Position numbers and translations under genes: made by a program. From positions 518,283 to 582,282 of the forward strand of contig NZ_FNUM01000002.1 in assembly GCF_900107995.1 (NCBI RefSeq): a DNA stretch of 64,000 nt, read 5' to 3'. Shown here piece after piece: positions 23,358-42,512 of this stretch (positions are counted from its first letter, which is position 1; every line of letters begins with the position of its first letter). The notes beneath the pieces are model-generated. The model had not been told where the DNA came from and did not search any database. It saw nothing but the letters and a program-made list of their open reading frames with translations. The stretch comes from Alcanivorax sp. DSM 26293. Its GTDB lineage: Bacteria; Pseudomonadota; Gammaproteobacteria; Pseudomonadales; Alcanivoracaceae.

Positions 23358-23383
23358 GTAGGAGCGTCGCTGGCGGCGCGATC
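23358..23383. repeat. single REP-like sequence (GTAGGAGC type)
   Basis: GTAGGAGCGTCGC followed by TGGCGGCGCGATC, a Pseudomonas-REP-like motif, 19 nt after the DUF58 stop. It shares its core with 12593-12619 and 53884-53907. Confidence 0.6.
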
Positions 23384-23388
23384 AAAAC

Positions 23389-23476: not shown

Positions 23477-23489
23477 GGTTTACATCATG

Positions 23490-23562
23490 AGCGCGGCCTT
23501 TTCCGTTGCAGCACCAGAAAAGCCCGGTCGCGTCACTGTTAACTATTCACTGTTAACTGAAA
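23490..23562. repeat. half-copy of the GTTAACT-type heptamer element
   Basis: The stretch begins GAGCGCGGCCTTTTCCGTTG, resembling the inner right hairpin arm of the elements at 27017-27181 and 42359-42512. It ends with GTTAACT, ATTCACT, GTTAACT (23537 onward). No matching left arm is present upstream; the CGAGnnn-type palindrome sits there instead. Confidence 0.65.
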
Positions 23563-23578
23563 CTCTCCAGTCCACTGA

Positions 23579-27016: not shown

Positions 27017-27181
27017 CAGTTAATAGTTAACAGTGAATAGTGAACAGCTACGCGGATTGATCCGTGAGAGAATCCACAACACAGGAGGCCCCGCCCATGG
27101 CTTGAGCGCGGCCTCTTTGCGTTCAACTTTCAATGCGCTTGGGCGCGCAACTATTCACTGTTAACTATTAACTGTTCACTG
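27017..27181. repeat. heptamer-repeat palindrome, GTTAACT/ATTCACT type, with inner hairpin
   Basis: The left arm (27017-27047) and right arm (27149-27181) are built of 7-mers such as GTTAACT, ATTCACT, ATTAACT, GTTCACT; 25 nt pair perfectly. The spacer holds a second, inner inverted repeat, GAGGCC..CGC (27085-27094) with GCGCGGCCTC (27106-27115), which recurs at 42421-42455. It fills the gap between convergent genes exactly, and the tusA stop lies inside the right arm. Confidence 0.88.
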
Positions 27182-27412
27182 CTTCTTCTTTATCCAATAC
27201 ACAAACAGCTCCCCCTCCTGCTCCTGCCCCAGCAGGGTGTGGCCAAGAAACTGACAGAACTTGGGAATGTCCCGTTCGGTGGACGGGTCCGTGGCTCGCA
27301 CTTCCAGAACCTCGCCGGGGTCCATGTCACGCACCTTGTTGTGCAGCATCATTACCGGTTCCGGACACAGCAGGCCGGTGGCGTCGAGGTGGTGTTGGGC
27401 GTCATGGCTCAT
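27176..27412 (-). CDS. tusA: sulfurtransferase TusA family protein
   Basis: A 78-residue TusA/SirA-type sulfur carrier: [22 protein letters not shown] holds the active Cys and the CPEP motif, followed by the expected [18 protein letters not shown]. TusA relays sulfur for tRNA 2-thiouridine synthesis and other sulfur-transfer steps. Its start overlaps the upstream permease stop by 4 nt. Its last codons (Lys-Lys-Lys-Gln-stop) run into the heptamer repeat. tusBCD are absent here. Confidence 0.92.
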
Positions 27413-28650
27413 GGAGTTACCTTTTTTGCGTTGCCAACAAGGGGCGCTTGCCAGAAAAAGGCGGCCATTATAACGGCTGTGCAGAGAATCGCAGCCAGCA
27501 GGAAATGGCCAGCATATCCCAGCCAGGCCGCACTGAAGCCGCTGGCCAGGGTAAAGGCCCCCACCGCAAACAACTGCACGGACGCCTGCATGGTGTAGTC
27601 ACTTCCCTCATGGCCACTGCGGCAGTAGTCCATCATCAACACAAACAGGGCCACGGTGGAAAGGCCATCGGCGAACTGCTCGAAGAGCGCCACCGGCCAG
27701 ATCCAGTGATCCGCCGGGCTGCTGGCCACCGCCCACCAACCCAAAAAAGACAGGGCCTGCAACCCGGCAAACCCGAACAGGGCCAGTTTGCGCGACAGGC
27801 GCATCATCAGCACCCCGGCCAGCGCCGCCCCGGCCAGCCCGACCAGGGATGACACCAGATCCAGACGACCGATGGCTTCCAGCGTCCATTGCCGATCCAC
27901 CAGAAAGGGTTTGATCATACGGGTACCAAAACCATCACCGACCTTGTAGCCCAGCAGAATGATCAACCAAACGGCCATACCCGGGCGCCACCAGAACAGG
28001 GTCAATTGCCGGCGCCACCAGCGTAACGTCACCGGTCGGCGGGGCCGGATCTGCTCCGGTGGCTCATGAAACCGCCAGACAACCAGCGCCACCAGCAACA
28101 GGGCAAGCATCAGGCTGGCCAGAGTACCCTGCCAGCCCCAGTGACCGACCATGATCAACAGGGCACCACTGCCGAGAATCATGCCAATCTTGTAGCCATT
28201 CACCTGAATACTGTTACCTAACCCACGCAGGTCCGGTGTCAGCAAGCGCGTGGCCAGGCCGTCAGTGGCGATATCCTGGGTGGCGCTGAACAGGTTGAGC
28301 AGGAAAAGTAGCACCACCAGCAACGCAAAGCCGGGCCCGAACAACCATTCGCGGGGAAACAGGGCGGTGACTGCCAACACCAGCATTACCGCCAACACGC
28401 AGGCAAGAATCCAGCGCTTGCGGTGATTGGGCTTGCCGCTGCCCCAGCGGTCCACCCAGGGCGCCCAGAGAAACTTCAGTACCCACGGCAGCGCCGGCAA
28501 CGCCAGCAGGCCAATCCATTCCGGTGACAGACCTGCGTCCCTGGCCAGGGCCGGCATGGACTTGCCCAACAACCCGGCGGGCAGGCCCTGGGCAAAGTAG
28601 AGCATGCCCAGAGTGACAAAGAGTGCCGGGGTGGCACGGGGGGCTGACAT
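27409..28650 (-). CDS. AmpG-like MFS permease
   Basis: A 413-residue, about 12-helix major facilitator resembling AmpG muropeptide permeases and their relatives: [21 protein letters not shown] in helix 1, [11 protein letters not shown] after helix 2 and [19 protein letters not shown] in helix 4 are characteristic. AmpG imports anhydromuropeptides during wall recycling, but several AmpG-like paralogues have other substrates. Coupling with tusA (4-nt overlap) and closeness to rlmM (2-nt gap) suggest an rlmM-permease-tusA operon. Confidence 0.82.
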
Positions 28651-28652
28651 GA

Positions 28653-29744
28653 TCAGTAATCCCGGTGGAAGGCGGCCCAGACGGTGATTTCCTCACGATC
28701 ATAATAGAGCTGGGCAGCCTTGATCTCGGGTACACCCAGGTGCTCATGACGTTCCATGGCAGCGGTCAGCTTTTCCAGCAATTGCCAGGCTTCCTGGAAC
28801 CGGCGCTTCATGGGCAGCTTGAGATTGAACAGGGCAGCCCGGGACCAGCCCTGGGTAAGCCACTTTTCCATCTGCTGCAGGGTACGTGCCGGCTTGTCCA
28901 CCACATCGCAGACCACCAGGTCCACACTGCTGCGGGGCCGCCAGGTAAAGGCATCACCATGAATATGCTCTACCGGGTATTCATCCAGCAGACGCCCATC
29001 GAGTTTGCCGTGATCCACTGCCTGAACCTTGATACCGCGCCTGGCCAGTTGCCAGCTCCAGCCTCCCGGCGCGGCACCCAGATCCACAGCCGTTTTCGCA
29101 GTGAGGCTGTCGGTGCTACCGAAAAAGCGCAGTAACGCCTCTTCCACCTTGAGGGCAGATCGGCTGGGCGCTTCGGCCGGCAGTTTCAGCCGCCGCACCC
29201 CGCCTTCGGCAAGCGGCACCGACGTCGGGCTGCTGGTCACCCAGCCATTGTGGGAATCACTAAAGAACAGATGTACCCGTTGCCGGGCATTGGCTTTCAA
29301 CAGGCCGGCTTTTTTCAGGCGAGGTTCCAGCGCCTTGCGAAAGCCACGCAGAAACCGCTGCATTTCCCGGCCGTCGTTGGTGTCAGGGTGCTCCAGAAAC
29401 ACTTCACGGAAAGGCGCGGCCTGTTTCAGTAATGGCCACAGCTCGGCGATCCTGTCATCGCCGATATTCACAAACTGCCCCTCGGCCAGGCTCAGACTGC
29501 GGGCAAAAATCAGCCCACTCTGCAGCAGTGGAGCCATGGAGCCCTGCTGGCTGTGCCAGAGCACATAGCCGCTGTCCGGGGTGGTACGGGGATAACCGCC
29601 GATCATCTGCTCAGCCGCATGGTAATTCAGCTCCGCAGCCAGGTCGTTCTCGAAGCCGGGTCGGCACAACCCCAGCAGGGTTTCATCATGGGCGTGCTGC
29701 AAGTCACTGTGCATGTCGGTCTCGCGGTGGTTACAATGTGGCAC
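28653..29744 (-). CDS. rlmM: 23S rRNA (cytidine-2498 2'-O)-methyltransferase RlmM
   Basis: The 363-residue protein has an N-terminal THUMP-like region ([18 protein letters not shown]) and a C-terminal RrmJ-like methyltransferase with SAM motif [17 protein letters not shown] and catalytic residues in VVCDVVDKP and [10 protein letters not shown]. It methylates C2498 in the peptidyl transferase centre. The start may be GTG 29744 (AAGGA upstream) or ATG 29714. It is divergent from the beta-barrel gene with a 30-nt gap. Confidence 0.93.
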
Positions 29745-29774
29745 ATTGTCCTTATCACAACGGCTGGATCAATA

Positions 29775-30446
29775 ATGAAAACAATATTGCCGCTGACCCT
29801 GGGCCTTGGCGCTGCCCTGCTCTCCCCCTTTGTACACGCTGAAGAGGAACTGGCGCCACCGGATGTGGATTTCTACGCCGAGGCGCAGATGCTGCGCGCC
29901 GACCTGGCGCCCTACGGCTTTGATACCACCGACGGCCTGGATATTCGTCTGGGCATGTGGCTCAACAGCGTTGATATCGGTGGAGACTCTCGGCTGGGAC
30001 TGGAGGCGGGCTTCCTGCGTCACAGCGAAGACTCGAACGGCCGTCAGCTTGAACGAGCCCCAGAATCCAACGAAACCCCGATTAATGGCACTCCCATCGA
30101 CACTGTCCGAATCAACGAAGAGAACTCCCTTCGCCTTAACGGCATTACAGTGGGAGTTGTTTGGCAAACCAAACGCTGGGTCTATCTGAAAGGCGGTGCT
30201 TATATCTACGATTTCAAGCTCGAAAACCGTCAGCAACGGGCATTTCTTGACGATAATTCAGACACGGTTGCCAGCGTGAACGAAGCCCCAACGAACGACA
30301 GCCAAAGTGGTATCGCCCCTTATCTCGGCGTAGGCCTGGCCATCCCGGTTCTGGACAAGCTGTCCGTCACCGCGGATTACCGCCAAACGCAATTGGAATC
30401 CGAAAACTATGGCACCTTTGGTGTCGGGCTGCGTTTTTCCAACTGA
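29775..30446 (+). CDS. small outer-membrane beta-barrel protein
   Basis: The 223-residue protein has a clear signal peptide (MKTILPLTLGLGAALLSPFVHA, cleaved before EEEL) and amphipathic strands ending in YGTFGVGLRFSN with a terminal aromatic-x-Asn pattern, consistent with an eight-stranded barrel insertable by BAM. Acidic loops (QLERAPESNETPING, AFLDDNSDTVASVNEAP) fit surface exposure. No specific function can be assigned. Confidence 0.75.
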   Translation: MKTILPLTLGLGAALLSPFVHAEEELAPPDVDFYAEAQMLRADLAPYGFDTTDGLDIRLGMWLNSVDIGGDSRLGLEAGFLRHSEDSNGRQLERAPESNETPINGTPIDTVRINEENSLRLNGITVGVVWQTKRWVYLKGGAYIYDFKLENRQQRAFLDDNSDTVASVNEAPTNDSQSGIAPYLGVGLAIPVLDKLSVTADYRQTQLESENYGTFGVGLRFSN

Positions 30447-30453
30447 TTCGAAA

Positions 30454-30492
30454 ACGCGGTTGGTGCCTTTGCTTGTAAGGCTCCAACCGCGC
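30454..30492. terminator. inverted repeat, probable terminator or REP
   Basis: GCGGTTGG-TGCCTT and AAGGCT-CCAACCGC pair around a short loop, 8 nt after the beta-barrel gene and before convergent purU. The motif resembles the REP-like sequence at 1120-1149 (TTGGAGC...TTGC). No U-run follows, so a terminator role is tentative. Confidence 0.55.
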
Positions 30493-30529
30493 CACGCCTT
30501 TTCATCCCACAGCAGACCACTCTCTGCTG

Positions 30530-31402
30530 CTACTTCACAAACACCACGGTCTTGTTGCCATCCACGATCACCCGGTCTTCCAGGTGCCAACGGACCGCTC
30601 GCAGCATCACCTGACGCTCCACATCCTGCCCCAGCGATTTGAGCTCCTCGGCGGAATGGCGATGGCTTACCCGCTGCACGTTCTGCTCGATGATCGGCCC
30701 CTGATCCAGATCTTCGGTCACATAATGGCTGGTGGCACCAATCAGTTTGACGCCGCGATCGTGGGCCTGCTGATAGGGATTCGCCCCCACAAAGGCCGGC
30801 AGGAAAGAATGGTGGATATTGATAATGCGGTGCGGGTGATGGGAAACGAAATCGCTGCTCAAGATCTGCATGTAGCGTGCCAGCACGATCACATCCACCT
30901 GGCCCTCGAGCAGCGCCAATGCCTTGGCTTCCGCCTCGGCCTTGTTGTCGCCACTGACAGGAATATGGTGATACTCAATACCAAAGCGCTCCACTTCGCC
31001 GCGCAGGTCTTCATGGTTGCTGATCACCATGGGAATGGTGGCCGGCAAATCGCCCCGGGAGGTACGCCACAACAGGTCCATGATCACGTGGTCATGGCGT
31101 GACACCATCACCGCCATGCGCTTTTTCTCGCTGGCATAGCTGATTTGCCACTGCATGCCATAGGGTTCGGCAACCCGGCTGGCGAAGTTGTTACGCAGGG
31201 CCTCCCGGGAGCAGTCCAGCTCCGGCGTCTGGAATTCCAGCCGCAGAAAGAAGGTGCCGCCACGGGCATCGCTGGAATGCTGGTCGAAATCGGTGATGTT
31301 GGCACCGTGATTGAACAGAAAGGTACTGACGGCGCTGATGATGCCCGGCTTGTCCGGACAGGTCACCAGCAGGCGCGCCGTATTGGCGTCTTGCACTGTC
31401 AT
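30530..31402 (-). CDS. purU: formyltetrahydrofolate deformylase PurU
   Basis: The 290-residue protein has an N-terminal ACT domain ([26 protein letters not shown]) and a formyltransferase-fold catalytic domain with [16 protein letters not shown] and [19 protein letters not shown]. It hydrolyses 10-formyl-THF to formate and THF, supplying formate for PurT and balancing one-carbon pools. A modest AGGAC precedes the ATG. It is 30 nt downstream of an AraC regulator on the same strand, a link of unknown meaning. Confidence 0.96.
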
Positions 31403-31432
31403 TGCAGGTCCTGATTAACGGGTCGGCACAAA

Positions 31433-32452
31433 TTACTGACTGACGCCGAAGTGCTCCTTGCGGAAGCTGGATGGGGTCTTGCCCGTCCACTTCTTGAAAG
31501 CACGGTGGAAAGAGCTGGCCTCGCTGAAGCCCATCAACAGGGCAATTTCATCAATGCTCAGATCCGGCTTGGACAGGTAGTAGACCGAGGCATCCTTGCG
31601 GATGGAATCCTTGATCTCCTGGTAGCTGGTATTGGCCTCTTTCAGCCTCCGGCGCAGGGTTTGCGGCGTCATGTTGAGTTTACCGCAGATTTCCGTGAAA
31701 TCGGGGAAACTGTTGCCGTATTCGTTGGAGATAATGGCCCGTATCTGCGCTGGCAGGCCCACATTATGAATATTGCCGTTAAACAGCTGGGTCAGGGAAT
31801 CCTTCAGGAACTTGGACAGGGACAACTCATTCTGCACCAGCGGCAGATCAAGAAAGTCGGCCCGGAAGGTCACCGAACTCTCGTCGGCACTGTACTCAAT
31901 CGGGCAATCAAACAGGAAACGATGTTCTTCGTCGTTTCTCACATCGGTGTAATCCAGTTTCACCAGTTTCGGCTCAATGGCCTTGCCGACCAGCCAGCTC
32001 ATGAAGCGCAGCCACACAAACAGGGAGGTCTCGATGATCACTTCCCGAAAATCCAGACGGGGGTCCGCGTGAACCACCAACCTGGCGATGTCGCCTTCTC
32101 GCGTAATGCGGGAATACATGCTCAGCTCGAACAAATCGTAAAAACGGATACCCCGCTCAACGGCTGCCCCCAGGGTCGGGCAATTGATGACCGCATGGGC
32201 CATCATGGAAAAGGTGCCGGGCTTGGATTTGCGCCCCTGGCCGAAACCGAGGAACTCGTCCTGGGTCTGCTGCATGATCAGCAGCATCATCTTGATAAAG
32301 GTGTCGCGCTCAATGCTCCCGTTCGGGTCATCGAGCAACTGTCGGGGAATGTCGCACTGATCCAACAGATCGGGAATGCTGGCACCAGACCGGGCCGCCC
32401 CCTGGAGCAATTTTACGACGCGATTGATATTGATTGTTCTGCGCTGGTACAT
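31433..32452 (-). CDS. AraC-family transcriptional regulator (OruR-like)
   Basis: The 339-residue protein has the OruR-type N-terminal domain (GAARSGASIPDLL, then ERGIRFYDLFELSM, a typical motif) and a C-terminal double HTH (LNMTPQTLRRRLKEANTSYQEIKD; LLMGFSEASSFHRAFKKWTGKTPSSFR). It shares architecture but only moderate similarity with the two other AraC proteins of the window. It lies upstream of purU and divergent from a receiver-domain protein. Confidence 0.9.
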   Translation of the reverse strand: MYQRRTININRVVKLLQGAARSGASIPDLLDQCDIPRQLLDDPNGSIERDTFIKMMLLIMQQTQDEFLGFGQGRKSKPGTFSMMAHAVINCPTLGAAVERGIRFYDLFELSMYSRITREGDIARLVVHADPRLDFREVIIETSLFVWLRFMSWLVGKAIEPKLVKLDYTDVRNDEEHRFLFDCPIEYSADESSVTFRADFLDLPLVQNELSLSKFLKDSLTQLFNGNIHNVGLPAQIRAIISNEYGNSFPDFTEICGKLNMTPQTLRRRLKEANTSYQEIKDSIRKDASVYYLSKPDLSIDEIALLMGFSEASSFHRAFKKWTGKTPSSFRKEHFGVSQ

Positions 32453-32726
32453 CGACCGCCACCCTCACACCGCTGGCAATGCCAAAAAACGGCTTAACCG
32501 CTTATTCAGTATCCTGAAATGGTTACCCGTTCATCATTGTTGTCCAACGGGCTTGTCTCTCGAATCCTCAGCACGGAATCCGGGCCGTCAATAATAAAGA
32601 AACTCGCCATAATTGACATAGTGTTTACCCGGTCCGACCGTGCCATTGTACGTGGAAATAACAAAAATCGCCTTGACGCATCTTTCACCCTTGTTATCCA
32701 CCCGTCATTACGTTACAAAATCATCC
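32453..32726. other. intergenic region between divergent araC-type and receiver genes
   Basis: This 274-nt, relatively AT-rich gap should hold both promoters. A weak candidate for the receiver gene is TTGACG (32673-32678) and TATCCA (32695-32700), 16 nt apart and about 27 nt before the ATG. I see no gene, repeat or clear operator. Confidence 0.35.
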
Positions 32727-33122
32727 ATGAATGTTCTCGTTGTCGAAGACAATAAAGCTGTCAGTCTGATCATTTGCCGTATCATTGAAGAGTTGGGCCA
32801 TGAATATGTGCTGGCCGCCGACGGTGAGGTGGCGCTTCGCCTTTTTCGACAACGGAAGGTGGATCTGCTGATTCTGGATGTGGAACTACCGTCTCTGGAC
32901 GGCTTCAGCGTCGCCCGGGAAATCCGCAACCAGAATGGCCATACTCCCATCCTTTTTATATCCGGCAACAACAGCGAATCCTATCGGCAACAATGCCTGG
33001 ACGCTGGCGGCGAGACCTTGATGCCCAAACCCCTGCGACCCAGTGAATTGCGGCGCTGGCTGGAAATGGCTTTCAGCCAGTTAGCTGCCGGCAACCTTGC
33101 CCCCTCTGACGCCTCCGCTTGA
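32727..33122 (+). CDS. stand-alone response-regulator receiver protein
   Basis: A 131-residue CheY-like receiver: acidic pair in VVEDNK, phosphorylatable Asp in LLILDVELPSLDG (about 52), Ser in FISGNN and Lys in MPKPLRPSE. There is no output domain, so it probably works through protein contacts or as a phosphorelay intermediate. No histidine kinase is in the window. It ends 9 nt from the convergent Na/Pi transporter gene. Confidence 0.9.
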   Translation: MNVLVVEDNKAVSLIICRIIEELGHEYVLAADGEVALRLFRQRKVDLLILDVELPSLDGFSVAREIRNQNGHTPILFISGNNSESYRQQCLDAGGETLMPKPLRPSELRRWLEMAFSQLAAGNLAPSDASA

Positions 33123-33131
33123 CCTCAGCCC

Positions 33132-34655
33132 TCATTGCCTAACGTCATTTGTCACCGCCAGACTGCGTAACCAGTGCCGCCCGCTCTCATCCACTTCCCG
33201 GGCCAGATTCAACACGCTGATACCCCGTAAACGAGCGCCTGAGACCAGCGAATAGGCCTCACGCTGGAGTTTCTCCATGGCCAGACGATGCTCAGCCGCC
33301 AGCTCAGCGCCGGGCGATGCCTGGTAAAGCCTGTCCAGCGCCAGCAAAATCTGCTCACTGAATCCCTTCAGGCCGGGGTCCCGGCTTTCTGCAAGAAGCG
33401 CCAGATCATCGGCCACATCCTTCAACGCTTTCAAGGCATAAACGGCCTCACGAACCCGAGCCCGGAGCCGCTGGAGGCGCTGTTCCTGCCCCTCGGTCAG
33501 GGTCTGTTGAGCCAGCCGGTTGGCATAATCCGCCAACTGCATTTCCTGATCTGTTACCTGCTCATACTCCTCCAGGAAACGCGACAAGGAACGCCCCTGC
33601 AGGGGGTAACGGCAATAGTTGCGGACCCGCTCAATGAGACTGTCCGTCTCACGACTCAGCACCAGTAACGCCGGCTCCACCGATTGCGGGCTGATATCGG
33701 CAAACAGGTCATGATGTGCTCGCTTACCAATGTGTTTCTCAATCCCCTTTTCCATGGCGGCCAGAAACGGCGCGAACACGACGATCCCGATCAGGTTGAA
33801 ACCGGTATGAAAGGCCACCAGGCCATATAACGGATCATTGACACCAAGCCAGACCGCCACTTGTGGCCATACAGGCATCATCAGAGAAAACGCCATCAGG
33901 GCCGTTCCCACGTTATATAACACATGAAAGGCCGCCACCTGTTTCTTCTGCACGGAGCCCTTGATCGCGCCAAGCAACAAGGTACTCGTGGTACCCAGAT
34001 CCGCACCAATCACCAACGCGAGGGCTTCCGGCAAGGCGATCAAACCGCCATTGAGCGCCGATAGCGTAATCAACATGGCCGCCGACGACGACTGGATGAT
34101 GGCGGTCAGCAGCACGCCGGCCAGCAGATATACCAGTGGTGGGTAACCCTGCAGCCAGCTCACATCAAAACGCTGGCCGACGCCTTCAACCGCCACCTTC
34201 ATGGTATCCAGACCGAAAATCAGCAATCCGAATGCCAGCAAAAACAGGCCGCCAGAGCGCCACAGCCCTTTCGGCAAAAGCACGTAGCAAAGAGCACCGG
34301 CCCCCGCCAGTGGCAAGCTCACCGCAGAGAGCGAGAGTTTGAAACCCAGCAGTGTCACCAGCCAGCCGGTAACCGTAGTGCCCAGATTGGCACCCAGCAT
34401 CACTGCCATGGCATGGCGCAGGGGAAGGATGCCCACCGACACGAATGCCAGGACCAGCAATCCGACCAGGGAGCTGCTCTGCATCACGGCAGTTATCAAC
34501 GCACCTGCCACAACGCCTTTCAGCGTAGTGTTGGTGGACCGTTGCAGCCAGTGTGAGGCCTTTTCGCTGAAAAGGGTCTGCACCGCCTGCTCCACCAATT
34601 GCATGGAAAACAGGAACAACCCCAGCCCGGCAATCATGGTCAGCACACTGTTCAT
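33132..34655 (-). CDS. Na/Pi cotransporter family protein with PhoU-like tail
   Basis: The 507-residue protein has two repeated NptA/PNaS domains with QSSS signatures (ITAVMQSSSLVGLLVLAFV near 55; LTAIIQSSSAAMLITLSALN near 185) and GANLGTT / GADLGTT motifs, then a C-terminal helical PhoU-like region (about 330-500). Such proteins move phosphate with Na+, and bacterial YjbB-type members favour export. It starts 9 nt after a PPK2 gene, suggesting a phosphate/polyphosphate homeostasis operon. Confidence 0.92.
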   Translation of the reverse strand: MNSVLTMIAGLGLFLFSMQLVEQAVQTLFSEKASHWLQRSTNTTLKGVVAGALITAVMQSSSLVGLLVLAFVSVGILPLRHAMAVMLGANLGTTVTGWLVTLLGFKLSLSAVSLPLAGAGALCYVLLPKGLWRSGGLFLLAFGLLIFGLDTMKVAVEGVGQRFDVSWLQGYPPLVYLLAGVLLTAIIQSSSAAMLITLSALNGGLIALPEALALVIGADLGTTSTLLLGAIKGSVQKKQVAAFHVLYNVGTALMAFSLMMPVWPQVAVWLGVNDPLYGLVAFHTGFNLIGIVVFAPFLAAMEKGIEKHIGKRAHHDLFADISPQSVEPALLVLSRETDSLIERVRNYCRYPLQGRSLSRFLEEYEQVTDQEMQLADYANRLAQQTLTEGQEQRLQRLRARVREAVYALKALKDVADDLALLAESRDPGLKGFSEQILLALDRLYQASPGAELAAEHRLAMEKLQREAYSLVSGARLRGISVLNLAREVDESGRHWLRSLAVTNDVRQ

Positions 34656-34664
34656 ACCTGCAAC

Positions 34665-35480
34665 TCAATCATGCGTTTTCATCAGTTCCCGGCGATAGTG
34701 CTCAATACACTGCAGGTCTTCACGGGGATATTCTGGTGCCAGCTCCTGAAGCGTAGACAACAACAACTGTGCCACAGCCGCTCTGGCACGGTGCTTGTCA
34801 TCATTGGGAATAAGATGCCAGGGAGCATGAAGGGTATGGGTTGCCGTCAGGGTCTCATTGACCAGCGTTAGATAGGATTCCCTCGCCATCCAGCTTTCCA
34901 CATCGGCGGGATCGAACTTCCAGCGCTTGCGAGGCTTGTCCAGTCGCTTCAACAGCCGGCGGCGCTGTTCTTCGCGAGAGGTGTTCAGCCAGATTTTGAT
35001 GATCCGGGTGCCTTCCCGATGCAGGTGTTGTTCGAACGCGTTGATGGCCTCATATTTCAGTGGCCAGTCATCACTACTGTGCTCGGTGACCGGCCATAAC
35101 CGTTCGGCCAGTACCGATTCGTAATGACTGCGATTGAATGCCACCACTTCCCCCCTGGCCGGCAAATGACGCCATACTCGCCAGAGAAAATCATGGTCCA
35201 CCTCCTCACCCAGGGGGCGACTGAATCCATGCACCCGGAACGCGGCCGGATCCATTGCTCCGGCCAGGGTGCGAATCAAACTATCCTTGCCGGAAGCATC
35301 AAGACCCTGCACAACCAGCAGCACCCCATTACGCCGATTGGCAAACAGTCGCCGTTGGTATTCTTGCAGGCCGGCCAGTGCCGTATCCAGGCACGGCTCC
35401 GGAGAGTCCGGAAAACGTGTTGGCAAACTCTGCACGTTGAGGGTCGGTCCTGAGGGCCAACCAAAGCGGTCCAGTTCCAT
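34665..35480 (-). CDS. ppk2: polyphosphate kinase 2 (PPK2) family protein
   Basis: A 271-residue P-loop kinase of the PPK2 family: Walker A GLDASGKDSLIRTLAG, then Walker B/lid motifs FNRSHYESVLAERL, and RIIKIWLNTSREEQRRRLLKRL. PPK2 enzymes use polyphosphate to phosphorylate nucleotides, or run in reverse; the class cannot be set by eye. GGGAG precedes the ATG. It is the first gene of a pair with the Na/Pi transporter. Confidence 0.92.
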   Translation of the reverse strand: MELDRFGWPSGPTLNVQSLPTRFPDSPEPCLDTALAGLQEYQRRLFANRRNGVLLVVQGLDASGKDSLIRTLAGAMDPAAFRVHGFSRPLGEEVDHDFLWRVWRHLPARGEVVAFNRSHYESVLAERLWPVTEHSSDDWPLKYEAINAFEQHLHREGTRIIKIWLNTSREEQRRRLLKRLDKPRKRWKFDPADVESWMARESYLTLVNETLTATHTLHAPWHLIPNDDKHRARAAVAQLLLSTLQELAPEYPREDLQCIEHYRRELMKTHD

Positions 35481-35530
35481 GCTGACTCCCTTGGGTATAC
35501 CGAATTGAGCATAATGGGCAGCGTGATCTC

Positions 35531-35713
35531 GGGAGCCTCTGAATAACTCCTTGCATGCTCAGTCTTTCAGGCTGGGTCGCAATCCCCACTCGCAGAGCAC
35601 AGAATGCGCGGTTTTGAAAGTGTATGTCCATCCACCGAAAAACCGCAACAACGAGTGCCAGTCAGCCTGGAAGCGCCAGCAGAAGATGCCTGAAAGGCAT
35701 ATCGGCCGCGCGA
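35531..35713. mobile_element. MITE-like repeat, copy 1
   Basis: Begins GGGAGCCTCTGAATAAC and resembles copy 2 at 40727-40936 along its length: the CCTTGCATG, GTCTTT.AGGCTG, GTCAGCCT.GAAGC and CCTGAA.GGCA blocks occur in the same order. About 180 nt, with no transposase. It occupies most of the 281-nt gap between ppk2 and the VOC gene. Probably the end of, or a small element derived from, an insertion sequence. Confidence 0.6.
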
Positions 35714-35761
35714 GTACGCATGGCGTGATCCAGAAGCCCCGCACGCAAACAGGAGATTTTC

Positions 35762-36172
35762 ATGGAACCACGCATCAGCATGATCACCCTTGGCGTCAGG
35801 GATCTGGCTACGGCGATCCGCTTTTATGAACAGGGCCTGGGCCTGCCTCGCCGCCCCGGTCCCGACGATGCGCCGGTGGCGTTCTTTGAATTGAACGGCA
35901 CCTGGCTGGGGTTGTTCGGTCATGACGACCTGGCGGCTGATGCCGGCGTTGGAGCAGCCGGTGAGGGTTTTCGGGGAGTGGCGATGGCTCACAATGTGGA
36001 AAGCCCACAGCAGGTTGACCAGCTGCTCGCCCAGGCCCGGGAAGCCGGCGCACAACGGATCAAACCCGGCCAGCCCACCGACTGGGGCGGTTACGCCGGC
36101 TACTTTGCCGACCCGGATGGCCATCTCTGGGAAGTCGCCTGCAACCCGCACTTCTGGGTTGGACCTCGCTAG
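35762..36172 (+). CDS. VOC (glyoxalase/bleomycin-resistance) family protein
   Basis: A 136-residue vicinal-oxygen-chelate protein: MITLGVRDLATAIRFYEQGLGL opens the first beta-alpha-beta-beta-beta module and YFADPDGHLWEVACNPHF closes the second. Metal ligands of glyoxalase I are not all obvious, so the function is open. AGGAG lies 6 nt before the ATG. It is followed by a bidirectional terminator. Confidence 0.88.
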   Translation: MEPRISMITLGVRDLATAIRFYEQGLGLPRRPGPDDAPVAFFELNGTWLGLFGHDDLAADAGVGAAGEGFRGVAMAHNVESPQQVDQLLAQAREAGAQRIKPGQPTDWGGYAGYFADPDGHLWEVACNPHFWVGPR

Positions 36173-36192
36173 TATCAGCAACGGATAGACAT

Positions 36193-36222
36193 AAAAAAGC
36201 CCGGCACAGGGCCGGGCTTTTT
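36193..36222. terminator. bidirectional intrinsic terminator
   Basis: A-run, GCCCGGC (36199-36205), loop ACAGG, GCCGGGC (36211-36217), T-run. It lies between the convergent VOC and fatty-acid oxidation genes. Confidence 0.92.
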
Positions 36223-36239
36223 AACAGACGACATCCACG

Positions 36240-38405
36240 TTATTTGTAGATTTCGCCCTTTTCCGCTTTCTCCACCAGGGAAGCCGGCGGATTGAAGCGA
36301 TCACCGTACAGCTTGGCCAGCTCCTGGGCACGAGCCACAAAACCGCGCAGGCCACCCTCATACTGGTTAATGTACTGGATCACGCCACCGGTCCAGGCCG
36401 GGAAGCCGATACCGAAGATGGAGCCGATGTTGGCGTCCGCCACGGATTCCATCACTCCCTCGTCAAAGCATTTCACCGCTTCAATGGCTTCCACGAACAT
36501 CATCCGTTCCTTGATATCTTCGAACGGGATTTCCTTGTCACCACCAAAAGCGTCTTTCAGGCCAGACCAAAGGTGCTTCTTGCCGTTTTCCGGATATTCG
36601 TAAAAGCCTTTGCCCTGGGCTTTGCCCGGACGATTGAGCTCTTCGACCATTTTCTTCATGACCACTTCCGCAGGATGCTCCGGCGGCAGCTCTGTGCCTT
36701 CACGCTTGGCATCATCACGGGCTGCCTTGCCGATCTTCAGGGCAGTTTCCATGTTGATCTCATCGATCAGGTTCAGGGTGCCTACCGGATAACCCGCCTG
36801 CATGGCCGCCTGCTCAATGGACTGGGCGTTAATGCCCTCACCCAGCATGGCAATACCTTCGTTGGCAAAGGTGCCAATCACGCGGGTGGTGAAGAAGCCA
36901 CGGGCATCGTTGACCACGATAGGGGTCTTCTTGATCTGCTGGCAGTAATCGTAGGTTTTCGCCAGCGCTTCCGGGCTGGTGTCCTTGCCGGAAATAATTT
37001 CCACCAGCGGCATCTTGTCCACCGGGCTGAAGAAGTGGATACCGATAAAGTTGTCCTGCTTCTTCACACCCTTGGCCAGGCCGGTAATCGGCAGAGACGA
37101 GGTGTTGGAACCCAGCACCGCATCCGGCTTCACCACATCCTCGATTTCCTGGAAGACCTTGTGCTTCAGTTCGGTGCTCTCGAACACCGCCTCAATCACG
37201 AAGTCCACCCCTTCCAGATCCTTGGCATCCGCCGTGGCGTGGATCAGGGACAGGATTTGCTCTTTCTTCTCCTCGGTCATCTTGCCCCGGGAGATTTCCT
37301 TGTCGAGCAGTTTACGGGAGTAGTCCTTGCCCTTCTCCGCGTTTTCCTGGGAGATATCTTTCAGCACCACCTGGGCACCACTGCGAGCGGTCACGTAGGC
37401 GATACCTGCACCCATCATGCCCGCACCGAGAATACCGACTTTTTCGGCGCGGAATTTCGGCACATCCTTGGGACGGCTGGCACCGGCGTTGATCGCCTGC
37501 AGGTTGAAGAAGAAGGCGGTGATCATGTTCTTGGCCACCTGGCTGGTGACCAGGGACACGAAGTAGCGGCCTTCAATGGTGGAGGCATTATCGAAATCCA
37601 CCTGGGCCCCTTCCACGGCCGCCGACATGATCGCCAGCGGGGCCGGGTAGTTGGCACCCTTGATCTGCTTTTTCAGGTTGGCCGGGAAGGCCGGCAGGTT
37701 CATGGCGAACTTGGGATTCTTGGGGTCCCCGCCGGGAATCTTGTAACCCTTCTGGTCCCAGGGCTGCTGGGCTTTCGGGTTGGCCTTGATCCATTCGCGG
37801 GCCTTGGCCAGCATCTCATCACGGTCGGCGGCCAATTCGTCGATCAGCCCCACTTTCTGGGCCTTGTCGGCTTTCATCCGCTGGCCCTGCATCAACACCT
37901 TCATCAGGCCGTCCTGGATGCCCAGCATGCGCACTACGCGGGTCACACCGCCACCACCGGGCAGCAAACCCAGGGTCACTTCAGGGAGACCGAACTGGGC
38001 CGATTTATCGTTGATGGCAACACGGTGATGACAGGCCAAAGCGATTTCCAGACCGCCGCCCAGAGCCGTACCGTTCAGGGCTGCCACAACCGGCTTGCCC
38101 AGGGTTTCCAGCACACGCAGCTGGCGCTTGATCTCCGTCACGTTATCCAGGAATACCTGGCCGTCTTCCTTTTTCGCCTTGAGCAGGTCACGGAGATCAC
38201 CGCCGGCAAAGAAGGTCTTCTTGGCAGAGGTGATGATGACGCCGGCAATGTTGTCTTTCTCTTTTTCCAGACGCTCTACGGTGGCGGCCATGGACTTGCC
38301 GTACAGCTCGTTCATGGTGTTCGCGGACTGATTGGGATCATCCAGAATCAGGGTAACGATGTTGTCCGCGTCCTGTTCCCAACGGATAGCAGTTTGTTCA
38401 CTCAT
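36240..38405 (-). CDS. fatty-acid oxidation complex alpha subunit (FadJ/FadB-like)
   Basis: The 721-residue bifunctional enzyme joins an enoyl-CoA hydratase domain (residues 1-200: AALNGTALGGGLEIALACHH and FGLPEVTLGLLPGGGG, with the catalytic Glu region) to a 3-hydroxyacyl-CoA dehydrogenase (about 325-500: VGILGAGMMGAGIAYVTA NAD-binding motif; NTSSLPITGLA; GIHFFSPVDKMPLVEII) and its C-terminal helical domains (QAGYPVGTLNLIDE). It catalyses two beta-oxidation steps. The thiolase gene lies 29 nt upstream on the same strand, completing the complex. GGAG lies 7 nt before the ATG. Confidence 0.95.
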   Translation of the reverse strand: MSEQTAIRWEQDADNIVTLILDDPNQSANTMNELYGKSMAATVERLEKEKDNIAGVIITSAKKTFFAGGDLRDLLKAKKEDGQVFLDNVTEIKRQLRVLETLGKPVVAALNGTALGGGLEIALACHHRVAINDKSAQFGLPEVTLGLLPGGGGVTRVVRMLGIQDGLMKVLMQGQRMKADKAQKVGLIDELAADRDEMLAKAREWIKANPKAQQPWDQKGYKIPGGDPKNPKFAMNLPAFPANLKKQIKGANYPAPLAIMSAAVEGAQVDFDNASTIEGRYFVSLVTSQVAKNMITAFFFNLQAINAGASRPKDVPKFRAEKVGILGAGMMGAGIAYVTARSGAQVVLKDISQENAEKGKDYSRKLLDKEISRGKMTEEKKEQILSLIHATADAKDLEGVDFVIEAVFESTELKHKVFQEIEDVVKPDAVLGSNTSSLPITGLAKGVKKQDNFIGIHFFSPVDKMPLVEIISGKDTSPEALAKTYDYCQQIKKTPIVVNDARGFFTTRVIGTFANEGIAMLGEGINAQSIEQAAMQAGYPVGTLNLIDEINMETALKIGKAARDDAKREGTELPPEHPAEVVMKKMVEELNRPGKAQGKGFYEYPENGKKHLWSGLKDAFGGDKEIPFEDIKERMMFVEAIEAVKCFDEGVMESVADANIGSIFGIGFPAWTGGVIQYINQYEGGLRGFVARAQELAKLYGDRFNPPASLVEKAEKGEIYK

Positions 38406-38434
38406 TTCATTTCTCCGAATTCGTTCGACGCGGT

Positions 38435-39646
38435 TTACAGACGCTCAATGATGGTGGCGATACCCATGCCACCGCCCACACACAGGGTGCACAGCGCGTA
38501 CTTCTTGTCGCGACGTTCGAGTTCATCCAGCGCGGTGCCCAGAATCATGGCGCCGGTGGCACCCAGGGGGTGGCCCATGGCAATTGCACCACCATTCACG
38601 TTGGTCACATCCGGGGTGATATCCATGTCCTTCATGAAACGCATGGCCACAGCGGCGAACGCTTCGTTGATTTCCCACAGATCGATGTCGCTGGCCTTGA
38701 GGCCGGCTTTTGCCAGCGCCTTCCTGGCAGCCGGGCCCGGACCGGTCAGCATGATGGTGGGATCCGCCCCGCTGATGGCGGTGCAGACAATGCGACCACG
38801 GGCCTTCATGCCGTAATCCTTGCCGACCTGCTCGTTACCCAGTACGACCAGTGCCGCGCCATCCACGATGCCGGAAGAGTTACCGGCGTGGTGAACGTGA
38901 TCAATCTTTTCCAGCCAGTGGTATTTCTGCAGCGCTACCGCATCGAAACCACCCATTTCGCCCATCATGGCAAAAGAGGGATTCAGGCCCGCCAGGCCAT
39001 CGGCGGTGGTGCCGGCACGGACATGCTCGTCACGATCCAGAACGGTCAGGCCGTTGAGGTCTTTCACCGGTACCACAGAATTGCCGAAGTAGCCTTTTTC
39101 CCAGGCAGTGGCAGCGCGCGCCTGGGATTCGGCAGCAAACTCATCCACATCACGGCGGGAAAAACCTTCGATGGTCGCGATCAGGTCTGCACCGATGCCC
39201 TGGGGCACGAAACCGGTCTTGTAGTTGGTCACCGGATCCATGGCCCAGGCGCCACCGTCGGAGCCCATGGGAATCCGGCTCATGGCTTCGACACCACCCG
39301 CCAGAATCAGGTCATCCCACCCGGAGGCCACTTTCTGGGCGCCGGTATTCACCGCTTCCAGGCCGGAAGCACAAAAGCGGTTCAGTTGGTAACCCGCCAC
39401 GGTATCCGGCAGGCCCGCAGCCAGCGCCGCAGTCTTGGCGATACAGGCGCCCTGATCGCCCACCGGGGTAACCACGCCCAACAACAGGTCATCAATACGG
39501 TTGGTGTCCATATTGGGAAAACGGGCTTTCACTTCATCGATCAGGCCGACCACCAGGTCCAGCGGCTTCACCGTATGCAGTGAGCCATCTTTTTTGCCCC
39601 GACCACGGGGAGTACGGATGGCATCGTAAATATAGGCTTCGGTCAT
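38435..39646 (-). CDS. acetyl-CoA C-acyltransferase (thiolase), beta-oxidation partner
   Basis: The 403-residue thiolase shows the nucleophilic Cys in [12 protein letters not shown] (about 90), [16 protein letters not shown] with the active His, and the C-terminal [10 protein letters not shown]. It cleaves 3-ketoacyl-CoA to acetyl-CoA. It is the first gene of a thiolase-FadJ/B operon with AGGAAGG before its ATG. Whether it is a long-chain (FadI-like) or acetoacetyl-CoA thiolase cannot be told, though linkage favours beta-oxidation. Confidence 0.94.
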
Positions 39647-39673
39647 GGAACCTTCCTCTTGCCTCAGGCAGAT

Positions 39674-39752
39674 GTCAGCTCAGCTGACGGGTTGTGAAGG
39701 GCAGCACCTGTCTGTGCATGTGTTGGATCATGCGTAACAAAGTGACAGGTGC
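39674..39752. promoter_or_regulatory. palindromes upstream of the beta-oxidation operon
   Basis: Two dyads lie in the promoter region of the thiolase gene: a near-contiguous GTCAGCT-C-AGCTGAC (39674-39688), and GCACCTGTC/GACAGGTGC (39704-39712 and 39744-39752, 32-nt spacing). Either could bind a TetR-type fatty-acid regulator. Neither matches the PsrA or FadR consensus as I remember them. Confidence 0.4.
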
Positions 39753-39933
39753 CGGCCAAATGTAGACCCGAGAGATTGCCCTACCCGCGCCCGTCACTCA
39801 ATGACAGGAGTTAACAGCCGGGGTGAGCGGAACGGGCAGTGGTTAACCGCTTGATATGCAAGGTGTCTTAAGGGCCAATGCGGGGCGCCCCAGAGATGCT
39901 AAGGTCCGGACATTCGTTTCAGGAGAATTCGCT

Positions 39934-40692
39934 ATGTCCCATAACACCGAGGTGCTGCGCTCCCTGGCCGCTTCCGCCCTGCAACAGGGCCGCGGCATTG
40001 CCAGCAAAGGCCACCGCAAGACCCCCCAGGAGCCCCTTGAACTGTATGACATGGAAGGGTGTCCGTTCTGCCGCCTGGTCCGTGAAGCATTGACGGATCT
40101 GGACCTGGATGTGCTGATTTTCCCCTGTCCCAAAGGGGGGGAGCGTTATCGCCCCCTGGTTGAGCGCCTGGGTGGGCGCCAGCAGTTCCCCTACCTGATG
40201 GATCCGAATACCGGGGCTGCCCTTTACGAATCCGCGGATATCATCGACTACCTTTACCGGGAATACGGTGGTCGCCCGGCACCTCGCCGCTGGCTGGTAC
40301 GCAGTTTGCGCACGGCAGCGGCGGTGTCCGCTTCTCTCCCCCGCGCGTCACGGGGCCTGCACGCCCTGGATAGCAAAACGCCGGAGCAGGCGCTGGAACT
40401 CTACTCTTTTGAGGCCAGCCCCTTCGCCCGCCTGGTTCGCGAACGCCTCACCGAGCTTCAGCTTCCCTACCTGCTACGCCAGTGCGGACGGGATCAGTGG
40501 CAGGACTGGGTGTTGCCGCCGATGCGCAGGCATCTTCTCAGTGACTATTCACCCCGTCAGCGAAACCGCATCGCTCTGATGGAGCGGGCCGGCCGTATCG
40601 CCGTTCCTTACTTGGTCGATCCCAATACGGGCACTGAACTGTTCGAGTCTGCGGATATTCTCGATTATCTGGACCAGACTTACGGTCGATAA
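39934..40692 (+). CDS. tandem thioredoxin-fold (GST N-terminal-like) protein
   Basis: The 252-residue protein contains two copies of a glutaredoxin/GST-N module. The first (about 38-120) starts LELYDMEGCPFCRLVREALTDL, with a redox-type CPFC, and ends FPYLMDPNTGAALYESADIIDYLYREYG. The second (about 160-250) starts LELYSFEASPFARLVRERLTEL and ends VPYLVDPNTGTELFESADILDYLDQTYG, with both cysteines replaced (SPFA). Only the first half can do Cys chemistry. ATG 39934 follows CAGGAG. Specific function unknown. Confidence 0.85.
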   Translation: MSHNTEVLRSLAASALQQGRGIASKGHRKTPQEPLELYDMEGCPFCRLVREALTDLDLDVLIFPCPKGGERYRPLVERLGGRQQFPYLMDPNTGAALYESADIIDYLYREYGGRPAPRRWLVRSLRTAAAVSASLPRASRGLHALDSKTPEQALELYSFEASPFARLVRERLTELQLPYLLRQCGRDQWQDWVLPPMRRHLLSDYSPRQRNRIALMERAGRIAVPYLVDPNTGTELFESADILDYLDQTYGR

Positions 40693-40726
40693 TGGCAATC
40701 CGGCGCATCAACAAATGGTGCGCCCA

Positions 40727-40936
40727 GGGAGCCTCTGAGTAACACCTTGCATGCCCCGTCTTTGAGGCTGGTCGCCCCTCGGCCAGGTAACGAGGGGCGC
40801 AATTTTGACGCTACCCCCTTAAGGAGAATCGAGAGATGCCTCTCCATCAGCGTTTCAACGTCAACATGCAATAGCGGGTGTGGGTCAGCCTTGAAGCCCC
40901 GGAAAAGGTGACCTGAAGGGCAGATCTGCGGCGCTT
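40727..40936. mobile_element. MITE-like repeat, copy 2
   Basis: Begins GGGAGCCTCTGAGTAAC, matching copy 1 (35531-35713) in order and spacing of conserved blocks. It contains its own hairpin, CGCCCCTCG/CGAGGGGCG (40773-40799), followed by CAATTTTG, which could terminate the upstream gene. The rest of the 419-nt gap up to 41112 holds only the candidate promoter of the small gene. Confidence 0.6.
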
Positions 40937-41060
40937 TGACACCGGGAAAGGGCACCACCCTGTCCATCACCAGAAAATATAGCCCCTGCCCCCCTTCACA
41001 CCACGCTGAGCACGCAAGGTGCTATTCAGGGGTTTCCCCCTTCTCCCCTCTCTGGATTAA

Positions 41061-41069
41061 TGCTATATA
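41061..41069 (+). promoter_or_regulatory. candidate extended -10 promoter
   Basis: TGCTATATA forms an extended -10 element about 43 nt before the ATG of the 52-residue gene. The -35 region is poor, as often tolerated with a TGn motif. Confidence 0.4.
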
Positions 41070-41111
41070 AAGCACTGAGTACCCCTTTAATTCTGGAAAG
41101 AGAGCAGCACC

Positions 41112-41270
41112 ATGGGTCGTCGACATTTTGATGACTATGAACCGGACGATTGGAAAGAAGAGCACAAGCGCGCCGAACGTGAACGTCGCAAACGCGATGC
41201 CAAGCGACATCGGCACGATTCAGAGGAAAAAAGTGAATCACGCGACGGTCGCGATTCACGCCCTTACTGA
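41112..41270 (+). CDS. small highly charged protein (52 aa)
   Basis: ATG 41112 opens a 52-codon frame ending at TGA 41270, encoding a very polar protein that starts MGRRHFDDYEPDDWKEEHK and continues with dense Arg/Lys/Glu/Asp/His and Ser. GAAAGAGAG lies upstream, an extended -10 motif is about 40 nt upstream, and a terminator follows, giving it a complete monocistronic unit. No hydrophobic core is evident, so it is probably disordered; nucleic-acid or ribosome binding would be a guess. Confidence 0.6.
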   Translation: MGRRHFDDYEPDDWKEEHKRAERERRKRDAKRHRHDSEEKSESRDGRDSRPY

Positions 41271-41311
41271 AACGCGTTTCTTCCCCTGAGGCATTCGCCT
41301 CATGGTCTGAA

Positions 41312-41346
41312 AACCGGGCTTCACGGATGAAGCCCTGGTTCCCCCT
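41312..41346 (+). terminator. intrinsic terminator
   Basis: AACCGGGCTTCA / TGAAGCCCTGGTT (41312-41340) with a CGGA loop is followed by CCCCCTTTTT. It lies between the small charged gene and the convergent PilZ gene. Confidence 0.8.
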
Positions 41347-41352
41347 TTTTGA

Positions 41353-41676
41353 CTAATTATCACCGTAACGGCTGGCAAGGGTGGTCAATGCGGCGGCGGT
41401 TTTTGCATCCGACTGCAGTTTGAATCCGCCACGCCAATGTCCATTGGGCAAATAATCATGCCAGCGGGGCTCCGCCATCACCGTCAATTCACGGCAACCC
41501 GATAAAGTCAGGGGTAATTGCAGCAGCAGGGGCTGGCAGCCTTGTGGCGGCGTGCCCCGACCGGTCAGGCAAAGCCCTTCATCGGTCAGATTGAGAACAT
41601 GCCCCACGGGCTGTCGGTGGATGGAAGCCTGCACATTGAGTCTCAGTCGAGGCCTGCGGAAACGTCGTCGCTCCAT
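41353..41676 (-). CDS. PilZ-domain protein
   Basis: A 107-residue single PilZ domain. The N-terminal ERRRFRRPR supplies the RxxxR c-di-GMP motif and NLTDEGLCL corresponds to the [D/N]xSxxG motif, with Thr in place of Ser. It ends in a strand-helix with WRGGFKLQ. Such proteins are c-di-GMP receptors, but partner and output cannot be inferred. It is divergent from smr. Confidence 0.85.
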   Translation of the reverse strand: MERRRFRRPRLRLNVQASIHRQPVGHVLNLTDEGLCLTGRGTPPQGCQPLLLQLPLTLSGCRELTVMAEPRWHDYLPNGHWRGGFKLQSDAKTAAALTTLASRYGDN

Positions 41677-41766
41677 AACTACCTCTCGGGAAGGGGCTCA
41701 CTGCCAGTTTCTGCCCGCTTTGTGTACCATGCAAGCATGAACTAACGGGTTTTGTGGAGCAGTCCC

Positions 41767-42360
41767 ATGGCCACCAATGACGATGATCTGTTCCGCCAGG
41801 AAATGGCGGATGTGACACCGATCAAGCCGGATAATCGGGCAACTCTGCCCCGCGTCAAGCGACCGGACAGCCTGCGCGAACAGCTTCGCCGCGCCGCTGC
41901 CATGGATGATCGCAAGGACAACAATCCCCTCACTGTACCGGAACAGGTTCCTCCCGTTGGCCCCACCGACATAGTCGGTGTGAAGAAAAACGGTGTTCAG
42001 GAAGGGGTTTACCGTAAATTACGACTGGGAAAGTACGACGCCCAGGACGTGCTGGACCTGCACCGGGTACGTTTGATGGACGCCCGGGACCGGGTGCAAA
42101 CCTTTCTTGTGAAAGCCCACGAGCAAGGCCTGCGTTCCGTCCTGATCAGTCATGGCAAAGGCGTGCACAGTGAACGCCCGGGCTTTCTCAAGAGCTATGT
42201 CATGCATTGGCTTGAGGAAAGCCATCTGGTCCTTGCCTACCACTCCGCCCCCCAGAATCAGGGCGGCAGTGGCGCCACCTATGTGCTGATACGGAAAAGC
42301 AGTCAGTCACGACAGCGTAATAGGGAATTCTTTATGGAGGCGGGAAAGCAGCAGAGATAG
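41767..42360 (+). CDS. Smr-domain protein (SmrA-like putative nuclease)
   Basis: The 197-residue protein has a disordered N-terminal half and a C-terminal Smr domain: VLDLHRVRLMDARDRVQTFL (LDxH motif), VLISHGKGVHSERPGFLK (HGKG motif) and GATYVLIRKS. Smr domains nick DNA or cleave mRNA at collided ribosomes; this short form resembles SmrA/YdaL. ATG 41767 has TGGAG 8 nt upstream. The stop abuts a heptamer palindrome. Confidence 0.9.
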   Translation: MATNDDDLFRQEMADVTPIKPDNRATLPRVKRPDSLREQLRRAAAMDDRKDNNPLTVPEQVPPVGPTDIVGVKKNGVQEGVYRKLRLGKYDAQDVLDLHRVRLMDARDRVQTFLVKAHEQGLRSVLISHGKGVHSERPGFLKSYVMHWLEESHLVLAYHSAPQNQGGSGATYVLIRKSSQSRQRNREFFMEAGKQQR

Positions 42361-42512
42361 TGAATAGTTAACAGTGAACAGTTAATAGCGCGCTTGGCTG
42401 CGCATCCCTGTCTGAAATGCAAGAGGCCGCGTCCATACTCAGGGCGCGGCCTCTTGCGCTCACGAAACAGATAACCTGCTTCGCGAAACTATTCACTGTT
42501 AACTGTTAACTA
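42359..42512. repeat. heptamer-repeat palindrome, GTTAACT/ATTCACT type, with inner hairpin
   Basis: The left arm (42359-42388) and right arm (42487-42512) are runs of 7-mers related to GTTAACT and ATTCACT, inverted. Inside is a perfect 11-bp inverted repeat AAGAGGCCGCG (42421-42431) / CGCGGCCTCTT (42445-42455). Same plan and same inner hairpin as 27017-27181. It exactly fills the gap between the smr stop and the convergent sthA stop. Confidence 0.88.

Follow-up and report, generated by a model that had tools for sequence, protein, structure and literature searches.

What kind of element gives rise to two matching composite palindromes at the ends of convergent genes is the question raised by the 64,000-nucleotide stretch of Alcanivorax sp. 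DSM 26293 analysed here (contig NZ_FNUM01000002.1, positions 518,283 to 582,282; hereafter the window, with its own numbering). At 27017-27181 (element 1) and 42359-42512 (element 2), inverted runs of heptamers enclose an inner hairpin, a design that an earlier note, made from the sequence alone, had ascribed either to a selected structure or to a mobile element moved by an outside enzyme. Of this proposal, the conserved family stood, and the idea of an element moved by an outside enzyme comes close to the present evidence: the family's arms match those of elements carrying a gene for the protein S23p, and the S23p lineage predicts the arm, while movement, and S23p as its agent, are what we infer from these comparisons. 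No PF05635 (S23p) gene lies inside the window palindromes, the three PF05635 matches of this genome being located on other contigs. Our favoured reading, to which we give a probability of roughly two in three (0.66), is that the palindromes are non-autonomous, S23p-less members of a family whose coding members hold a PF05635/TIGR02436 gene between like arms. They would be non-autonomous kin, and not coding members, because they are devoid of the S23p gene, and they look like gene-less relatives within one element family because their ends are of the same kind as those found around S23p genes.

An arm consists of about four heptamers with the consensus A-R-T-K-R-A-Y, which gives the palindromes terminal inverted repeats of ~28 bp. 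Moving inward along an element, AGC or AAC stands next to the heptamers; then come a boundary resembling GCGCG, about 35-40 nt of filler (judged from the locus sequences) and, in most convergent gaps, a hairpin. The main classes are one sequence with class-wide changes (A-R2-T-K-R5-A-Y), namely class A (R2=G, R5=A), class B (A, G), class C (G, G) and class D (A, A). In element 1, the left arm on the plus strand comprises four class-A heptamers (AGTTAAT AGTTAAC AGTGAAT AGTGAAC), then AGC (27018..27045), and contains stop codons in every frame when read inward; the right arm on the minus strand (27153..27180) has the same four heptamers with their order shifted by one. Element 2 has four class-A heptamers in its left arm (42359..42386, plus strand) and three full heptamers in its right arm (42491..42511, minus strand). 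Two-heptamer patterns with up to two mismatches yielded 18 matches in the window, against 1.33 expected. Both palindromes were present as the earlier note had described them, except for one base in the hairpin that it took to be shared. This hairpin was found at both loci, but in element 1, whose terminator-like hairpin occupies 27085..27115 (no strand assigned; GAGGCCCCG...CGCGGCCTC), the left stem is GAGGCCCCG and not GAGGCCGCG, and it is the element 1 copy that carries the mismatch, because the orthologues in two relatives (genomes G006 and G001) have GAGGCCGCG. The element 2 hairpin (42419..42457, no strand assigned) is GCAAGAGGCCGCGTCC / GGGCGCGGCCTCTTGC. Many class-A arms use each of four heptamer variants once, the left and right arms sometimes being out of register by a single heptamer, and adjacent identical heptamers look rare.

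The outcome that would have counted against a family, only two copies or no conserved arm, was excluded by a search of the whole genome and of its relatives (17 genus genomes, the genome of the window being G000), which revealed a family far larger than two loci. A strict three-heptamer pattern gave 96 matches in the genome of the window and none for the reversed control, and at least 43 loci are armed there (at least 40 clusters outside the window and three inside). With a generic arm pattern, 15 of the 16 genus relatives had 45-429 matches of the same or a sister type and the remaining one, G015, had two; the reversed control gave 4-31 matches per genus genome outside G015 (20 vs 249 for the genome of the window; maximum 31, in G008), and 20 genomes outside the genus gave four matches altogether. 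A contig scan with the class-A array returned at least 120 stretches, with class A also in other phyla, and named Alcanivorax contigs carry elements too, one locus (L117) repeating the arm of another (L037) plus its flanks. One genome of the class, G161, had 67 matches to the reversed control pattern, and another heptamer family may abound there.

The first S23p case was an element between glyA and nrdR in G003, whose class-C arms, 410 bp apart, enclose a gene encoding a PF05635/TIGR02436 four-helix-bundle protein. PF05635 was detected in 16 of the 17 genus genomes and in none of 14 named control genomes; G015, the sole genus genome without it, is the one with two arm matches as opposed to 45-429 elsewhere in the genus. 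A flanking inverted repeat (score ≥28) was found for 36 of 42 genus S23p genes (46 PF05635 matches less four, of which three were partial and one lay at the end of a contig), compared with 0 of 83 other open reading frames (ORFs) at the same loci, and these repeats are heptamer arrays whose sequence varies by S23p subfamily. Such repeats also accompanied 9/14 plasmid genes (14 of 21 records analysed; 12 cyanobacterial, one from Azospirillum and one from Gemmatirosa) and 10/16 non-duplicate viral-contig genes (seven duplicates of 23 left out), which makes 19/30 against 3/114 controls, with period 7 fitting best in 16/19. Among the 120 class-A-array loci listed by the contig scan, three hold S23p genes; in a Bacillota bin and an unclassified bin the array lies within 25 nt of the S23p gene, and in a Bacteroidota bin the S23p gene at such a locus has its own AGTGATC-type arms. 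On a Nostoc plasmid, an S23p element with heptamer arms starts 2 nt after one gene and ends 8 nt before the next, and a convergent gap of the same plasmid has an S23p-less AAGGCAG-type arm pair, at distances of 24 and 22 nt from its two genes, which is the plan of the Alcanivorax palindromes. By sequence, 2gsc, a Xanthomonas protein, is the sole relative with a solved structure. On cyanobacterial plasmids (L402, L407, L412), S23p genes were seen inside operons of clustered regularly interspaced short palindromic repeats (CRISPR) systems, between cas6 and cas4 and between cas10 and cmr3. Arms of period 8 and not 7 were also seen beside S23p genes, on both sides in L412 and on one side in L406.

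The glyA-nrdR gap was compared in all 16 genomes with an S23p gene (glyA and nrdR were named by a model in G003, and the gap was recognised in the other 15 by the same flanking sequence). The S23p element belongs to class A in G006 and G014, to class B in G002, G005, G009 and G010, to class C in G000, G001, G003, G007, G012 and G016, and to class D in G004, G008, G011 and G013; the left arm gave this class in 16/16 and the right arm in 14/16, the other two giving B through a tie at position 2. Mapped on the S23p tree of this locus, arm class required three changes, the minimum possible, and 0/200 shuffles were as low, whereas eight changes were needed on a species tree built with four other proteins, where 82/200 shuffles were as low. 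Because the class follows the S23p tree and not the species tree, the gene and its arms travel as one cassette, and where the S23p lineage changes the heptamer changes too. In this 16-row tree, classes A and D are separated by a branch with 99/98 support from B and C, which differ at heptamer position 5. When other lineages were added, 39 S23p genes with 11 classes again required the minimum number of changes (10; 0/200 shuffles as low); three of the 42 genes were left out of this tree, one broken and two without recognisable arms, and the labels E-K were assigned by eye. The order of the class splits is unsure, since the 39-row tree, unlike the 16-row tree, places class C at the base.

The palindromes fall into the same classes, their classes A-D being those of the glyA-nrdR S23p elements, and in heptamer content and order their arms largely agree with class B, C and D S23p elements. 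Palindrome arms were closer to the left than to the right S23p arm in class B (33:3), class C (5:1) and class D (15:1).

The two arms of a palindrome also match each other. All 54 pairs in the class table (restricted to pairs whose arms each had three or more strict heptamers and lay 70-140 bp apart) had the same class on both arms, and the arm spacing was 101-109 bp in 48 of the 54 measured pairs, although the fillers are unrelated between loci. Loci in G003 were picked by hairpin and not by arms, because an arm-based choice would bias the result; matched inverted arms of several heptamer classes (own-arm score ≥24) were present at 38 of 43, a score that 35% of arms randomly paired across loci also reach (permutation 0/10000), and at 0/12 hairpin loci of G015. 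Orthologous gaps may differ in class between species, with both arms switched together. The gap at sthA, for instance, is of class A in the genome of the window, of class B in G003 and of class D in G001, and G008 (class D) and G014 (class A) differ there in class with an alignable interior. At the same gap, G007, G015 and G005 are without such arms, and their gaps are too diverged for a junction to be read. In one case, L308 (G008, in the gap after an HtrA-family gene), about 15 tandem TGACGCC heptamers were seen beside a different terminator-like hairpin.

Interiors were compared between species by aligning left and right fillers directly and swapped (45 of 67 orthologous gaps were used, the rest having no found hairpin), with 1529 comparisons between different loci as the null (largest difference 31). 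Beyond this maximum, 16 of 235 pairs showed direct homology and five showed swapped homology, the latter at three of four loci. The clearest inversions were G014 vs G009 at sthA and G000 vs G001 at the HtrA-family locus (the gene of L039 belongs to this family), where the interior is nearly a reverse complement with the flanking gene order kept; a few hairpin-loop bases were not inverted in the second case. On an evolutionary scale, the DNA between the arms does flip, as these differences between species show.

These inversions, whose points of exchange lie within or close to the arms, are what would be expected if arms were kept alike by local recombination alone, with inversion and hairpin-templated copying homogenising slippage-prone heptamer arrays and no trans-acting protein involved. 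The class switch with alignable interior at sthA also fits, as does an own-locus heptamer order that beats chance when a one-unit shift is allowed (class A of G000, 80/10000; pooled class B, 41/10000), whereas the own-locus match of pooled class A is not significant (1005/10000). The same few classes, moreover, recur at unrelated loci and in unrelated species, class A even in other phyla, and the S23p link is left unexplained, so that we hold this account to be quite unlikely.

Several observations weigh against membership in an S23p family as well. No movement was observed for any palindrome, no empty site with a target duplication was seen in the compared orthologous gaps, and no pair of 28-nt fillers in G003 reached score 40 (on the scale of this comparison, 15% of the longer 62-nt left-arm zones reach it). 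Interiors are thus not common to different loci, which leaves recent whole-element jumping unsupported, and whole-element transposition was rejected as the cause of recent spread. No flanking repeat at threshold was found for 6/42 S23p genes of the genus and 11/30 of the others, and four classes of the 39-row tree (C, E, F and G) each fail to form a single branch, with two changes apiece. Class-A palindrome arms show no preference for the S23p left arm (31:26). The genome of the window has no class-A gene among its three S23p genes, whose arms are class C, CAAGCTA-type and weakly TCAGTTA-like (score 20-26; L375), though most of its palindromes belong to class A; loss or replacement of the cognate gene would then be required. 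The genome-wide share of class A tracks S23p type poorly (in G001, 255/329 matches are class A and the glyA-nrdR S23p element is class C), and a genus-wide match of S23p type with the dominant palindrome class, when tried, was weak, several genomes disagreeing. Mixed-class loci exist outside the class-table selection (L046; G012 at the HtrA locus), and own-locus arm matching in the genome of the window is not significant (688/10000, 15 loci), its palindromes being nearly all of one class.

If the palindromes are S23p-less kin, S23p would recognise its own heptamer class at the arms, and the DNA bounded by arms would be, or would once have been, copied or exchanged through this recognition with the help of host enzymes, S23p-less copies riding along. 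The inverted-repeat arms may recombine, through RecA or replication template switching, and flip the interior, an event that would be nearly neutral. Copies in convergent gaps would be kept for their symmetric two-way terminator interior, surviving there because a symmetric terminator works in both orientations. How binding by S23p would lead to movement of DNA is the least secure point of this scheme.

Position relative to genes bears on a further alternative. The arms had been placed by the earlier note at the stop codons of convergent genes, which the stop positions bear out. Element 1 lies between a gene without NCBIfam or Pfam match (26410..27012, plus strand), with its stop ending 5 nt short of the left arm, and the TusA gene (27179..27412, minus strand), whose stop overlaps the right arm; at element 2, the stop of the SmrA gene (Smr domain; 41767..42360, plus strand) overlaps the left arm, and that of the Si-specific NAD(P)+ transhydrogenase gene (SthA; 42515..43912, minus strand) is 3 nt outside the right arm. 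Tabulated over the genome of the window (gene calls from a small codon model), elements are mostly at coding ends: a called gene ends towards 48 of 64 arms, within 25 nt for 47 of these, and 35 of the 64 are in convergent gaps. Among 56 arms with a long open frame, a stop codon lies within 10 nt of the outer edge in 40 and 1-10 nt before the arm in 25, offsets that are partly forced when positive because arms contain stops.

Such positions would suit a gene-end module that does not move, a two-way terminator with arms serving as spacers of the 3' untranslated region, with stops in all frames, selected for clean ends of translation and transcription. Stops are present in the class A-D heptamers, and repetition every 7 nt places them in all frames. 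Element 2 also folds far better than shuffled sequence (z -7.9; z -2.6 for element 1). Nine of the 64 arms, however, are in divergent gaps, with a called start codon no more than 22 nt away in six cases, and classes F, G and the GTCKGAC-type have heptamers without a stop in each. A three-frame stop cassette had been considered as a general reason for the heptamers; it fits A-D and was dropped in view of some other classes in which not every heptamer has a stop. The convergent-gap interiors usually hold the terminator-like hairpin GCAAGAGGCCGCGCCC/GGGCGCGGCCTCTTGC, which is strong, but the T tract after it is weak and the hairpins were not listed by the promoter/terminator scan; Rfam gave no match above the gathering score in window positions 20000-46000. 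The hairpin occurs in all 17 genus genomes, with 12-72 copies each, and is not limited to armed copies, since G015 has 12 and almost no arms. As a gene-end module also leaves the S23p genes inside arms and the link between S23p and class unexplained, we regard it as an unlikely explanation. G015 (L278-L288), which is without S23p and Y1_Tnp, keeps its 12 hairpins, some of which have one arm only, or arms in decay, built from other types of heptamer.

The Y1_Tnp domain (PF01797) has a distribution like that of the arms: of the 17 genus genomes, 16 have it, and the exception is G015, where arms are nearly lacking. Elements of the repetitive extragenic palindrome (REP) type, including REP doublets forming hairpins (REPINs) moved by REP-associated tyrosine (Y1) transposases (RAYTs) and bacterial interspersed mosaic elements (BIMEs), resemble the palindromes in being non-autonomous, many-copy inverted repeat pairs at gene ends, with a variable spacer. 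Their repeat architecture is another, the arms here being tandem heptamers and not REP hairpins, and in a search for classes A-D no arm was found in the stretches around 17 open-frame Y1 genes (of 19). An origin through Y1/RAYT transposases was rejected for this reason and is very improbable.

Other parts of the window carry related structures. A further element has inverted CGAG-type heptamer arms at 23388-23423 and 23451-23480 (23388..23480, no strand assigned), of a class that also surrounds S23p genes in G004, G011, G012 and G014. Beside it, a right class-A arm is left over (23538..23558, minus strand), the left half of its element being missing or replaced by the CGAG-type element; window positions 23340-23581 were thus noted as a class-A element without its left half and with CGAG-type arms in place, that is, a nested, damaged or replaced element. 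A class-E (AAGTTGA-type) element has its left arm at 2253..2286 (plus strand) and its right arm at 2385..2410 (minus strand), and the 29-nt run of the left arm also borders an S23p gene in G008 (L388). A scan of tandem periods 4 to 11 in the window found four segments of period 7, one of period 10 and none of the others; one of the four, 2253-2286, is part of the class-E element.

The earlier note's statement that no named element has this plan was not quite right, since the S23p-encoding intervening sequence (IVS) of 23S ribosomal RNA (rRNA) has a 28-bp terminal stem and heptameric repeats (PMC4990558). As described there, the Coxiella IVS is 428 nt long, with an S23p ORF and tandem GACAGAT heptamers whose number varies between strains, is excised by RNase III and possibly originated from a mobile element; Xanthomonas S23p is a toroidal homopentamer (PMC4990558). 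The likeness lies in the terminal inverted repeats and the tandem heptamers beside an S23p ORF, in an IVS of about 430 bp, whereas the IVS sits in 23S rRNA and is cut by RNase III (PMC4990558), and the S23p elements described here sit between protein genes. The window palindromes are likewise intergenic, between protein genes and not in 23S rRNA, and differ further from the IVS as portrayed in that source in having no S23p gene, a terminator-like hairpin and tens of copies per genome. TAACTGA heptamer repeats of Beggiatoaceae, cyanobacteria and Bacteroidetes, for which the mechanism is given as not known (PMC4679880), are also arrays at gene edges, in the same phyla, and their reverse complement, TCAGTTA, resembles the weak arms of the S23p gene at L375. 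They are, however, described as direct repeats that precede start codons and for which a role in translation is proposed, only one indirect repeat being noted, and the available passages of PMC4679880 make no link to S23p.

Among the open-access papers listed by literature searches, none was found that joins heptamer repeats outside rRNA to S23p or that deals with heptamer repeats in Alcanivorax. The heptanucleotide short tandemly repeated repetitive (STRR) sequences of cyanobacteria are likewise tandem, intergenic heptamers dispersed between genes, and we know of no link between them and S23p or paired arms. Miniature inverted-repeat transposable elements (MITEs) are comparable as short non-coding DNA with terminal inverted repeats in common with a coding element, but here neither target duplication nor transposase has been shown and the arms are tandem heptamers. 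Invertons, DNA between inverted repeats that occurs in both orientations, share this property with our palindromes, which differ in that the interior is a putative symmetric terminator and the orientations differ between species.

A wider conclusion, which we judge only slightly better than an even bet, is that S23p and tandem-heptamer inverted arms form one superfamily with a heptamer-to-protein code, in which each S23p lineage would have its own heptamer and the elements would settle at gene boundaries, even inside operons; many heptamer repeats of cyanobacteria, Beggiatoaceae, Bacteroidetes and this genus would then be ends or S23p-less satellites of such elements. Heptamer repeats between bacterial genes and the S23 four-helix-bundle protein of rRNA IVSs have both so far been unexplained, and the link gives the repeats a candidate cognate protein and S23p a candidate nucleic-acid target. 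The approximately 11 protein/heptamer pairs within one genus constitute a natural set for reading a recognition code, and in the palindromes the ends of convergent genes show a new source of DNA that can be inverted and bears a putative terminator.

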